Origin: a virus
Virus record (IMG/VR): IMGVR_UViG_3300020147_000018
Coordinates: 1-41,388 of that record
DNA length: 41,388 nucleotides
Strand: one strand, 5' to 3'
The translations under genes were made by a program, and so were the position numbers. The notes under the pieces are model-generated. The model was not told the DNA's origin and did no database searches. It saw only the letters and a list, made by a program, of their open reading frames with translations. Below are positions 10,086-41,388 of this stretch, piece by piece (the stretch's first letter is position 1; every line of letters begins with the position of its first letter).

Positions 10086-10403
10086 TTAGGTTGTTATGTA
10101 GTCAGTGAAGTACGGCAGCTCCGCAATCAGCTCGGCCTCTGTCGGTATTGGTTCTGGGTCAACTTCACGCGTACATGCTGCAATCTTCTCTATGCCGAAG
10201 TTATAAACAGCATCCCTAAAAGCTACCGCCGCTCTGCCCTCTGGGCCAAATGTAGGATGGTCGGACGTGGCATAAGTGACCATGGTGCGGATGGATTCAT
10301 AGCGGTAAGAGTTGGCTACAGCGTCAAGGTGGTTATCAAGTGCTTTTTCCAGCCGAGCAATGGTTTGCTCTGCGGTTTCTGGAGTTAACGTGATAATGCT
10401 CAT
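10086..10403 (-). CDS. Conserved protein downstream of the tail fibre
   Basis: 105 residues, helical at the start (ETAEQTIARLEKALDNHLDAVA) with a central YESIRTMVTYATSDHPTFG and a C-terminal EAELIAELPYF. It resembles small proteins commonly encoded after phage tail fibres. A chaperone or accessory role is possible but unproven. The start overlaps the preceding stop at 10400-10403. Confidence 0.7.
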   Translation of the reverse strand: MSIITLTPETAEQTIARLEKALDNHLDAVANSYRYESIRTMVTYATSDHPTFGPEGRAAVAFRDAVYNFGIEKIAACTREVDPEPIPTEAELIAELPYFTDYITT

Positions 10404-10663
10404 GATGCGTCCCCTTCGAACTCGCTCGAATCACCGCCTACGCCGTCAGTCAGATCGGCCTCGTTAACGGTCCATGCCGCTCTTAGGGCACGGTCCGCAG
10501 GTATCTGAGAAACATCCACAATCTTGTACGGCTTGCCTGCCGGTACGTCTTTTGTGGCAATCGCTTCAATGCCATGGATCTCCAGCATCTCGGGAGTGGG
10601 ATTTATGACGGAAACACCACCATCGTCGTGTCTAAAAATAATTCTCTTATCGGATTGAGTCAT
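10400..10663 (-). CDS. Small tail-fibre-associated protein
   Basis: 87 residues from the ATG at 10663, chosen because AGAGGAA lies just upstream and the frame before it runs antisense-like through the fibre gene end. The sequence (RIIFRHDDGGVSVINPTPEM, then TKDVPAGKPYKIVD) is typical of small proteins encoded next to phage fibres whose last part resembles tail-fibre-assembly proteins. It ends in an acidic tail. Confidence 0.72.
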   Translation of the reverse strand: MTQSDKRIIFRHDDGGVSVINPTPEMLEIHGIEAIATKDVPAGKPYKIVDVSQIPADRALRAAWTVNEADLTDGVGGDSSEFEGDAS

Positions 10664-34919: not shown

Positions 34920-34970
34920 AGCGCTTCCTTTCTGCAAATTGCCTATCAACCGAGTAACCTAATGAACAAA
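34920..34970 (-). repeat. Boundary element I (opening copy, minus strand)
   Basis: Minus strand TTTGTTCATTAGGTTACTCG, then a centre with GATAGGC, then TTTGCAGAAAGGAAGCGCT before GTG 34919. Last 14 bases identical to element H. Confidence 0.87.
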
Positions 34971-38433: not shown

Positions 38434-38457
38434 AAAAAAGCCCCGATGCTCTGGGGC
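38434..38457 (-). terminator. Terminator after cro, distal (tR1-like)
   Basis: Minus strand GCCCC-AGAGCATC-GGGGC followed by six T. Second in line for transcription that starts at cro. Confidence 0.88.
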
Positions 38458-38499
38458 AACTCTCACGGAAATCCGAGCCGTATAGCTCAGGTTGAGAAT

Positions 38500-38524
38500 A
38501 AAAAAGGCCCGAGGGGTAACGGGC
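38500..38524 (-). terminator. Terminator after cro, proximal
   Basis: Minus strand GCCCG-TTACCCCT-CGGGC followed by C and six T. It lies 48 bases after the cro-like stop. With the terminator at 38434-38457 it forms a tandem barrier before the replication genes. Confidence 0.86.
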
Positions 38525-38571: not shown

Positions 38572-38901
38572 TCATTGGATGTCCAATTTGTTGCGGCGGC
38601 CTTTGATGGCCTCGATAAGTTGAACATCACCTTTACGGCGAGTTGGTGTGCGTTTACCTTTGCTCTGCCCAGCCTCGCCTTCATATGGCGGAAAGAAGCA
38701 CAACAGGAGGTCATTACGTGTTATTGAAGAGCCGAAGTGATTCAGAGCCTTTACGAGGCCATCAAAGGTTTCCCTTTGAGGAACCTTGCGCCCATAGATC
38801 AGATGGCTTCCAATGTAGCCAGGCTTCGATTTTGCAATTTCTGCGAACTCTTTCTTTTGTTCGTCAGATAATGACCGCCAGAATGTTTTGAATTTGTCCA
38901 T
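38572..38901 (-). CDS. cro: Cro-like (YdaS-type) regulator
   Basis: 109 residues. FWRSLSDEQKKEFAEIAKSK, PGYIGSHLIYGRKVPQRETF and DGLVKALNHFG give a short HTH domain of the YdaS/Cro kind; the basic C-terminus (GKRTPTRRKGDVQLIEAIKG) may add DNA contacts. It faces the repressor gene across three operators. Its promoter places the start of the RNA at or next to the ATG, so the mRNA is probably leaderless, in line with the missing ribosome binding site. Confidence 0.78.
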   Translation of the reverse strand: MDKFKTFWRSLSDEQKKEFAEIAKSKPGYIGSHLIYGRKVPQRETFDGLVKALNHFGSSITRNDLLLCFFPPYEGEAGQSKGKRTPTRRKGDVQLIEAIKGRRNKLDIQ

Positions 38902-38907
38902 GCCTAA

Positions 38908-38936
38908 ATCTTACCTGACAGGTAAAGTACCGTCAA
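38908..38936 (-). promoter_or_regulatory. cro promoter (pR-like)
   Basis: Minus strand TTGACG (38931-38936), 17 bases, TAAGAT (38908-38913). Operator 38911-38925 covers the spacer and -10 box, so repressor binding would block it. The predicted RNA start is 38900-38902, at the ATG of cro. Confidence 0.75.
38911..38925. promoter_or_regulatory. Operator O1
   Basis: TTACCTGACAGGTAA, a dyad of TTACC/GGTAA arms with five bases between. It overlaps the cro promoter's -10 and spacer. It is the best match in the set and probably the strongest site. Confidence 0.85.
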
Positions 38937-38944
38937 GCAAAACA

Positions 38945-38959
38945 TTACCTGACAGGGCA
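38945..38959. promoter_or_regulatory. Operator O2
   Basis: TTACCTGACAGGGCA shares the first 12 bases with O1, but its right arm is degraded. 34 bases from O1, 16 from O3. Confidence 0.75.
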
Positions 38960-38960
38960 T

Positions 38961-38975
38961 TTACCCCACAGGTAA
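38961..38975. promoter_or_regulatory. Operator O3
   Basis: TTACCCCACAGGTAA has perfect arms and lies nearest to the repressor gene, about 20 bases before its ATG. It suits control of the repressor's own expression. Confidence 0.82.
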
Positions 38976-38995
38976 CGGCGCGTAGCCTTGCGGAC

Positions 38996-39466
38996 ATGAA
39001 AAAGTCGATACCGACCACCCCAGACGTTTACGCCGCTCTACGAGTTGCGTTTGCTAATCTGGTGGCGGCTAGGAAAAAGCAGGGAGAAAATCAGGCGGTA
39101 GTAGCAGAGGCTATTGGCGTGCTGCCTAACTACGTCTCCAACATCGTGAATGGGCGAAAGAATCTAGGCCCGGAAGTTATTGCGCGGATAGATGAGAAGT
39201 ACCCAGGCTGGCGCGACGCCTCTTACGAGCCAAAGCCTGCCGCACCAGAGCAGACAGGCGACGCATACTGGGACACCATAGCGTTCTGCTATAACGGGCT
39301 TACAGAGGGCCACAGAGACATGCTGGCCTACATGGCAAACAAGATGTATACGATGGATAACCCTGGCGCTGTAGATATAGGCACACCAAGGCGCAGGAAG
39401 ACGGATCATATTGATCTTGGAATATTTGAAACAGAAGAATCACAACCAGCTAAAAAACTTGCCTAG
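38996..39466 (+). CDS. cI: Phage repressor (CI analogue) without peptidase domain
   Basis: 156 residues from ATG 38996; upstream codons in the same frame cross the operators and are discarded. The HTH is at about 25-60 (NQAVVAEAIGVLPNYVSNIV, NGRKNLGPEVIARIDEKYPG). The C-terminal part (TIAFCYNGLTEGHRDMLAYM, then basic PRRRKTDHI) has no Ser/Lys LexA-like peptidase, so RecA-driven self-cleavage is unlikely. It should bind the five TTACC-N5-GGTAA sites. Opposite to cro and upstream of a lipoprotein gene 8 bases away. Confidence 0.85.
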   Translation: MKKSIPTTPDVYAALRVAFANLVAARKKQGENQAVVAEAIGVLPNYVSNIVNGRKNLGPEVIARIDEKYPGWRDASYEPKPAAPEQTGDAYWDTIAFCYNGLTEGHRDMLAYMANKMYTMDNPGAVDIGTPRRRKTDHIDLGIFETEESQPAKKLA

Positions 39467-39474
39467 GGGGATCT

Positions 39475-39750
39475 ATGAGAGCACTACTCGTATTACCTTT
39501 GATTCTTGTTGGATGCGCAACTGCCACACCAACCTATGCGCCTGATGGGTCACAAGCGCACAGCCTGAATTGCTCAGGCACCGCCAGAAACTGGGGCATG
39601 TGCTATGAGAAGGCGGGGGAACTTTGCAAGGAGCGCGGCTATGAGGTTGTTGCTGGCGGCACAGATCAAAGCGCCGGAGCGTATGCAAACCGTGAAGGGT
39701 TTTACGCTAGCAGCTCCCATACAAGGAACCTCGTAGTTAAGTGTAAGTAA
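39475..39750 (+). CDS. Lysogen-expressed lipoprotein, possible exclusion factor
   Basis: 91 residues. RALLVLPLILVGCA is a signal sequence with lipobox LVGC (lipidated Cys 14). The mature part has four cysteines (33, 43, 51, 90) for disulfides and a region with YAPDGSQAHSLNCSG, then CKERGYEVVAGGTDQSAG. It is 8 bases after the repressor and has GGGGGAT upstream, so it should be made in the lysogen. Surface lipoproteins at this place often block superinfection; the function is not proven. Confidence 0.78.
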   Translation: MRALLVLPLILVGCATATPTYAPDGSQAHSLNCSGTARNWGMCYEKAGELCKERGYEVVAGGTDQSAGAYANREGFYASSSHTRNLVVKCK

Positions 39751-40133: not shown

Positions 40134-40148
40134 TTACCTACTGGGTAT
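40134..40148. promoter_or_regulatory. Operator OL1 (left)
   Basis: TTACCTACTGGGTAT matches the TTACC-N5-GGTAA dyad at all but the last base. It abuts the -35 box of the left promoter at 40148. Confidence 0.8.
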
Positions 40149-40175
40149 TGCAATATGTTACCCGTTAGGTATAAT
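40148..40175 (+). promoter_or_regulatory. Left early promoter (pL-like)
   Basis: TTGCAA (40148-40153), 16 bases, a perfect TATAAT (40170-40175). Both left operators overlap it (40134-40148 and 40158-40172), so repressor would shut it. It drives the structured leader and the recombination/integration operon. The predicted start is about 40182. Confidence 0.88.
40158..40172. promoter_or_regulatory. Operator OL2 (left)
   Basis: TTACCCGTTAGGTAT lies in the spacer and -10 of the left promoter, 24 bases from OL1. It differs from the consensus arm only in the last base. Confidence 0.8.
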
Positions 40176-40181
40176 GGCATT

Positions 40182-40490
40182 CATCAACTAAGCAATTAGT
40201 TGGCTAGCAAACCCGAGGAATTAGCCGCCGATGGGTAGTTACCGGAACACAGGTAATCAGAAGGAGGCCGCTGTTTCAGAGTGAGTAGGTTGCTAGGTAG
40301 TCAGTAGTAAGGAGAGGCGGCGTGGAAGGACACGCGGACGGTAAGTTAGGCGGCCCAGGCACTTAACCTGGTATCCCCTGATGCCACGGGATGAGCAGAG
40401 TCTAGATGAAGCTCTGAACGAGGGCTAAGTCGCCAGAGGCGCACTGAGTTGGTTTCGAATCCATCCCTCTCCTTACTGCTGACTAGTTGG
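40182..40490 (+). ncRNA. Large structured leader RNA downstream of the left promoter
   Basis: No open frame of note here. Predicted folds: (1) CAACTAA-GCAA-TTAGTTG, 40185-40202, a perfect stem with a GNRA loop at the very 5' end; (2) a stem of nine pairs, 40204-40213 with 40288-40296, around a TTACC/GGTAA hairpin (40239-40256); (3) next to it a 20-pair stem, 40298-40317 with 40466-40485, one G-U only, closing a junction. Inside it: GCGTG/CACGC (40320-40335), CCAGG/CCTGG (40355-40371), ATCCC/GGGAT (40373-40392), CAGAG/CTCTG (40396-40416), and AGTCGCC with GGCGCACT (40428-40445). Candidates: antitermination RNA (put-like), small RNA, or tRNA-like element. None is proven. Confidence 0.7.
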
Positions 40491-40544
40491 ATGCTCAGCA
40501 ATGAGTGTCAACGATAGTGAAGCTAGATGAACAAGAACAAAGGG

Positions 40545-40596
40545 TTTTGAACATTAGGTTACTCGGTAAATAGGCCGGGTTGCAGAAAGGGAACGT
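40545..40596 (+). repeat. Boundary element G (opening copy, cassette 40597-41093)
   Basis: TTTTGAACATTAGGTTACTC, then GGTAAATAGGCC, then GGGTTGCAGAAAGGGAACGT before ATG 40597. It is the most complete copy and contains the exact 11-mer GGGTTGCAGAA. The inverted partner is N (41063-41087). Confidence 0.88.
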
Positions 40597-40902
40597 ATGG
40601 GAACGCCACATTTAAGCGAGAAGGTTATTTACGAGGCAGCAGACCGTGCAGAGCGTGAGCGCAATCTGGCACTAGGCGATATATGCGATGCCATCCGCTT
40701 TAGCAAGCTAGACCTTACAAGCATGGATGACGATGCCTTTGAGCTGGCTAATGAAACCTTCCGCATCCTGAATGATGAAGAGGATGACAAGGAAGGCCGG
40801 ATTCGTGACCTGTACGACGCACGAGTATGGAAGCTGGCTGAGTGGGTGCATGACGATGGCGGCTACTACGCAAACCAACTGAAAAGAAAGCTGGGGCTGT
40901 GA
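40597..40902 (+). CDS. First gene of the left operon, acidic early protein
   Basis: 101 residues. It is acidic and helical (SKLDLTSMDDDAFELANETF, RILNDEEDDKEGRIRDLYDA) with the basic end NQLKRKLGL. No family recognised. The ribosome binding site is supplied by boundary element G. Its stop overlaps the next start (TGATG, 40900-40904). Confidence 0.7.
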   Translation: MGTPHLSEKVIYEAADRAERERNLALGDICDAIRFSKLDLTSMDDDAFELANETFRILNDEEDDKEGRIRDLYDARVWKLAEWVHDDGGYYANQLKRKLGL

Positions 40903-41100: not shown

Positions 41101-41352
41101 ATGGATAGAAACAGCTTAGTGGGTTTTGCAAAGGCTGCGGTAGAAGGGGCAGTCGAAATAATCGCACAAAAGGACGACGCCATAGCCGCTTGTGAACGCC
41201 AAGTAAACGAGCTGGCAGAGATAAACAAGGAGCTGCTGGAGGCTGTGAAGATGTTGCGTGAGGAGTTTGCCGGATTGCCTCATTCGCTCGGCTACTACCT
41301 AACGCATCTGCCAAAGATTGACGAGATTATCGCCAAGGCTGAGCAAAAGTGA
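41101..41352 (+). CDS. Coiled-coil early protein (complete copy)
   Basis: 83 residues. AQKDDAIAACERQVNELAEI then NKELLEAVKMLREEFAG is a coiled coil at about 22-56; the C-terminus has LPHSLGYYLTHLPKIDEIIA. Probably dimeric; function unknown. GAGGTTGAG precedes the ATG. It runs through the circle join, the same 3' end being present at 4-93. Confidence 0.75.
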   Translation: MDRNSLVGFAKAAVEGAVEIIAQKDDAIAACERQVNELAEINKELLEAVKMLREEFAGLPHSLGYYLTHLPKIDEIIAKAEQK

Positions 41353-41388
41353 CTTACCGCATCCCCTGCCCTCACTGTGGAATAGGTA
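41263..41388. repeat. 126-bp terminal direct repeat, right copy
   Basis: Identical to 4-129. See the left copy; it shows that the sequence closes into a 41259-base circle. Confidence 0.93.

Follow-up and report, generated by a model that had tools for sequence, protein, structure and literature searches.

The left early operon of a temperate phage, whose genome constitutes the window (the whole stretch of 41,388 bases analyzed), opens with a leader RNA that is real and under selection, belongs to no Rfam class and is simpler than was first proposed. The best explanation for it, to which a probability of roughly 0.4 was assigned, is that of a cis-acting 5′ untranslated region of the recombination-gene messenger, composed of a constant 5′ part and of exchangeable cassettes closed by stems of RNase III size.

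The window is a closed circular contig, with bases 4-129 repeated exactly at 41263-41388, and an integrase, an exonuclease, a single-strand binding protein, a portal and replication genes are all encoded in it. The cro-like gene and the HTH regulator are divergent, with operator sites between them at 38911-38925 and 38961-38975, and a second operator-promoter pair (40134-40175) is directed into the recombination genes and the integrase. The left-promoter operators are of the same type as the two intergenic sites, and the perfect TATAAT promoter with two operators described previously was found again (Table 1). Since an operator-promoter pair placed upstream of the recombination genes is the layout of lambda PL, the leader lies at the nutL/putL position, as had been proposed. 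Between the cI-like gene and PL, a small lipoprotein-like gene (phrog_5685, 39475-39750) is likely a lysogenic conversion gene; its relatives occur in P22-like Salmonella phages.

Table 1. Features of the early region of the window (positions and strand as in the window; p, pairing probability; z, fold stability against shuffled sequences).
Feature	Position	Strand	Remarks
PR-operon intrinsic terminators, in tandem behind the cro-like gene	38440-38524	-	L089 and L091 likewise have tandem terminators
cro-like gene	38572-38901	-	Named by position; without family match
HTH regulator (cI-like)	38888-39466	+	PHROG transcriptional-regulator matches
Operator pair at the left promoter (TTACCTACTGGGTA, TTACCCGTTAGGTA)	40134-40171	+	Pattern TTACCN5GGTA; sites at 40134-40147 and 40158-40171
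PL-like sigma-70 promoter, TTGCAA-16-TATAAT	40148-40175	+	Equivalent promoters at the same place in relatives
Constant 5′ element CATCAACTAAGCAATTAGTTGGCTAGCAA	40182-40210	+	Near-identical in L009 and L091, whose remainder differs
Untranslated leader RNA, ~415 nt, predicted start to first gene	40183-40596	+	No long ORF; fold z -3.6
Domain 1, closed by CTAGCAA/TTGCTAG	40204-40296	+	p 0.83; counterparts in relatives
20-bp stem, 5′ arm	40298-40317	+	Predicted pairing, inverted-repeat rank, covariation
Variable interior ("cap") of the long-stem cassette	40318-40465	+	z -1.39 alone; without sequence match to L009 interiors
20-bp stem, 3′ arm	40466-40485	+	Predicted pairing, inverted-repeat rank, covariation
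Second GCAA-tetraloop hairpin, GATGCTCA-GCAA-TGAGTGTC	40490-40509	+	p 0.93; not seen in relatives
Dispersed boundary element ahead of the first gene, including a ribosome-binding site	40536-40590	+	Copies at several gene starts, both arms
101-aa gene, first in the left operon	40597-40902	+	Without known family

The stretch had been described as free of genes, and indeed the plus-strand ORFs inside the leader are all of 22 aa or less. None of 100 shuffled sequences folded as stably as the whole leader, the C content of which is 20-22%. At its start, the reported hairpin with a GCAA tetraloop was predicted with a probability of 0.98 (CAACTAA-GCAA-TTAGTTG, 40185-40202). The constant 5′ element is kept mainly as sequence, the hairpin having one A-C mismatch in each relative. 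A nine-pair stem had also been described; seven continuous pairs (CUAGCAA/UUGCUAG) stood, and the remaining two or three form only after a bulge. By inspection, the closing stem of this domain has counterparts at the same place in both relatives, CTAGC/GCTAG in L009 and TAGC/GCTA in L091.

The adjacent 20-pair stem was recovered in full (20 pairs including one U-G, p 0.98), and only five inverted repeats with arms no more than 500 nt apart were found in the 41 kb genome, among which its 20-nt repeat is the best. The elaborate junction with at least five hairpins that the preliminary description had placed inside it did not hold: the minimum-energy fold contains three hairpin loops, mostly with weak pairing probabilities, and the 148-nt interior taken alone is indistinguishable from chance (19 of 200 shuffles were as stable). 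The 188-nt domain formed by stem and interior reached z = -5.56, with 0 of 200 shuffles as stable; the excess stability is thus mainly that of the long stem. No RNA class could be named before, and no Rfam match was obtained at the gathering score, only chance matches appearing at E values up to 10. A tRNA-like fold, suggested by GGTTTCGAATCC near the 3′ arm, was rejected because neither ARAGORN nor Rfam supported it and L009 has no loop to match. The 5′ GCAA loop could pair with TTGC in the ribosome-binding region of the window and L091, but this idea fails in L009 and was also discarded. The tetranucleotide CTAG reaches 12.3 per kb in the leader (40182-40505), about six times its genome frequency of 2.1 per kb.

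The leader is common to only two other records, L009 (the same record as L089) and L091, so that the sequence family comprises the three members found. A 172-aa protein of the recombination operon, 95% identical, led to the first, followed by a DNA match at the promoter; L091 was reached through the dispersed boundary element. Promoters lie at the equivalent place in both (TTGACA-17-TATAGT in L089, TTGACA-18-TACTAT in L091), and all three leaders begin with (C)ATCAACTAAGCAATYAGYTG, followed by CTAGCA. The operators of L091 differ in sequence (TTCACCGNNNGGTG), yet its RNA start is the same, which indicates that a change of immunity specificity leaves the leader in place. No relatives were found with the downstream gene or the cI-like gene as query. 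Phages compared by blast with the leaders of the window and L009 yielded nothing useful, and plasmids compared with the L009 leader nothing. Patterns built from the 5′ element returned only L009 and L091; their other matches fell mostly within reading frames or immediately ahead of one. The domain common to L009 and L091, used as a pattern, added no members, and no such leader was present in loci fetched through the lipoprotein gene.

Behind the constant start, the three leaders differ in composition. A stretch of about 100 nt is 90% identical between L009 and L091 and for the most part absent from the window, and the number of long-stem cassettes is none in L091, one in the window and two in tandem in L009. 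The tandem cassettes, at 10258-10473 and 10479-10650 of L089, are the two best inverted repeats there. In L091, GGCTAAG runs directly into GATTGATTAG, which by inspection is similar to the 3′ end of the last cassette of L009, and this junction looks as if a cassette were missing or not yet inserted.

The boundary element, of about 45 nt (CATTAGGTTNCTCGGTNNATNGG...TTGCAGAAAGGA), occurs just before start codons in both early arms, with copies in the window at 545, 1004, 3879 and 40553 (+) and at 34963 and 32935 (-), and is inverted near gene 3′ ends, near 2582 (-) and 34395 (+). It is also present in L089, L091, L092, L095, L097 and L099, and lambdoid phages have similar boundary or linker sequences. 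In the PR arm, a 20-nt inverted repeat (90% complementary, arms 38600-38619 and 38749-38768, 129 nt apart) lies immediately upstream of the PR terminators, within the cro-like gene, and was not seen in L089. A small gene of the PR arm lies between copies of a palindrome, GAGGGCCCTC or AGGGCCCT, both in the window (~38155 and 37920, minus strand) and in L089 (8417-8430 and 8639-8652); the palindrome is perhaps an autoregulatory site.

Compensatory changes in a relative, named in the preliminary description as the check on the fold, were observed in the long stem, where 12 of the 20 pairs had changed on both sides with respect to the two equivalent stems of L009. Across these three stems (one from the window and two from L009), 96.7% of the cells were paired, a value reached by none of 500 shuffles, and sliding the partners by 1-3 columns cut the pairing to 28-61%. 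Since it was a protein and the flanking sequence that led to L009, and not its inverted repeats, the covariation is fair evidence that the helix is under selection. The interiors of the L009 cassettes gave fold z values of 0.22 and -0.49; therefore, the stem is conserved as a helix and its content is not. On the operon strand, G-U exceeds A-C in the stems by 12 to 4 over three groups, a small excess that mildly favours an RNA of that strand.

From this anatomy we infer transcription of the leader, cutting by RNase III and an effect on the mRNA. In the lysogen, repression would keep the leader of the left (PL-like) early operon silent, and induction or infection would switch it on. The constant part of the leader consists of the first 28 nt and then the small domain closed by CTAGC/GCTAG, and each cassette of a long-range stem of about 20 bp closing a stretch without conserved sequence. 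RNase III is proposed to cut at the stems because 20 bp is the size of its substrates: a helix of about 20 bp or more is expected, and 20 pairs, predicted with a probability of 0.98 and covarying, were found. The lambda PL leader and the rRNA spacers are cut by RNase III. The cutting would set the end and the stability of the recombination-gene mRNA, and the structured, C-poor leader may resist Rho. Some points count against this reading. Known phage RNase III sites need not enclose 150 nt. A site for processing alone would have no need of the sequence conservation seen in the 5′ element, which may therefore bind something. The sequence family is also small, with three members, and so is the G-U excess.

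An antitermination role, suggested by the nutL/putL-like placement, was disfavoured because PR has strong tandem terminators in all three phages and no copy of the RNA, while PL has the RNA and no strong intrinsic terminators were found in the scan downstream of it, a scan that is blind to Rho-dependent sites. The nascent leader could nonetheless act as an RNA-only antiterminator like HK022 put, binding RNA polymerase so that it passes left-operon terminators or pauses, and such Rho-dependent sites would escape the scan; this was considered unlikely. HK022 put suppresses termination through the zinc-binding domain of the RNA polymerase beta′ subunit. As with HK022 putL and putR, the element lies just downstream of PL and near the transcript start, and the constant part begins at the predicted start, where an element that acts on RNA polymerase would be expected. 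No N-like gene was seen, in agreement with the earlier account, and the first gene product has no known family. The best boxA, compared with CGCTCTTTA, has two mismatches in the window leader and three in L009 and L091, and the leaders do not conform to lambda nut, with its boxA and following boxB and its N gene. Against a put-like element, putL and putR are similar in sequence and serve both early operons (PMC9378689), whereas no second copy of the 5′ element beyond chance was found in the window. Moreover, put RNA is of about 70 nt with two stem-loops (PMC9378689), whereas the leaders described here are of 210-540 nt and in PL only; at about 415 nt and with a 20-bp long-range stem, that of the window is far larger than put, as already pointed out. 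No significant match was obtained between the leader and the HK022 stretch searched.

Instead, excision at the long stems could release from the leader one or more stable RNAs that act in trans by binding host or competitor molecules, the rapid change of the interiors reflecting an arms race. Each long stem would free a domain of 130-175 nt, the interiors of the window and L089 diverge almost completely while the nearby recombination-gene region is about 85% identical, and abundant noncoding RNAs of variable sequence are known in phages and satellites (PMC7567579). However, the interiors are without excess structure, the long-stem domain is absent from L091, and neither of two possible activities was well borne out. 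Antisense action on the phage's own leaders or PR terminators, of the c4, P4 CI or IIR type, was rejected, with two antisense 11-mers against 5.6 expected and duplex energies within those of shuffles. A CsrA sponge was rejected as well, GGA in loops being clear in the window alone (0 of 60 shuffles), weak in L009 and not significant in L091. This trans-acting reading was considered unlikely.

The processed-leader reading gains a wider setting from a survey of long-range stems, in which loci were fetched with the 172-aa protein and their non-coding stems then inspected. Three further groups have the same architecture, with early-operon position, stems of 17-29 nt and variable interiors, and no sequence in common with the window. 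In the first (L042, L059 and L070), an early-type promoter (TTGACA) is followed by the invariant CATGCAGTAACGAA, a conserved domain, a stem of about 17 bp and a variable interior, and inverted repeats lie over the promoter in L059 and L070. The second consists of nine loci (L027, L051, L054, L056, L057, L058, L061, L066 and L076) with a stem of the GCATCGG...CCGATGC type and interiors of 60-160 nt; double changes were counted in 12 of 19 pairs, a count biased upward since the loci were picked partly as inverted repeats. The third (L030, L033 and L045) has ACAAGRAAGCTG stems. The interiors of all three groups are at chance fold stability, and the Rfam scan of the surveyed loci gave no match at the cassette places. 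L009 and the L070 group have 12-13 nt in common (GCTGGCAGATCGG), a match noticed post hoc and by inspection that hints at a link between the two. Another conserved structured leader after an early promoter, which may be the nut-type leader of other phages, was observed at 1033-1316 of L044, with a boxA-like AGCTCTTTAA, and at 1644-1964 of L027.

The recurrence of the long-stem architecture across phage groups is a more interesting lead than the single leader. That temperate phages have in such leaders a common and so far undescribed early-operon class, whose constant start is followed by exchangeable cassettes of hypervariable interior that, once excised, target host or competitor molecules in trans, seems improbable. 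An equally improbable account, in which the cassette is a mostly neutral exchangeable insertion with inert content and a closing stem that holds the flanking leader together, agrees with the variable interiors of chance stability, the cassette number of 0, 1 or 2 and the similar elements in other phages, but fails to explain the twelve double changes preserving the stem, which need selection at some level, and a transposon or MITE end was rejected since terminal repeats would keep their sequence and the cassette arms change together between copies.

The early leaders of temperate phages are a meeting place of antitermination (nut, put), RNase III control and immunity. A leader with a fixed 5′ end and swappable covarying cassettes, found in several phage groups under unrelated sequences and not represented in Rfam, would be a new kind of module worth searching for, and would make it testable whether the cassettes control mRNA fate or release RNAs. 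Among known systems, the ornate phage RNAs GOLLD and ROOL (PMC12286853, Rfam) are likewise phage-borne, large, non-coding and structured, but the leader has no Rfam match, is not near tRNA genes and has an interior without conserved or unusually stable structure. The 5′ UTRs of PLE satellites and their IIR transcript (PMC7567579) are similar in being long untranslated early leaders present in every relative without sequence conservation, and the IIR transcript also in being bounded by an inverted repeat; its antisense matches to ORF leaders (PMC7567579) are absent here. The RNase III leader of lambda PL and the early intergenic sites of T7 share with it the early-operon position, a stem of about two helical turns and the non-coding nature, whereas the stem described here is long-range, encloses 130-174 nt, can be repeated in tandem and is a putative site of cleavage. 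Set beside these systems, the leader is a variant of the structured phage early leader, new in form.
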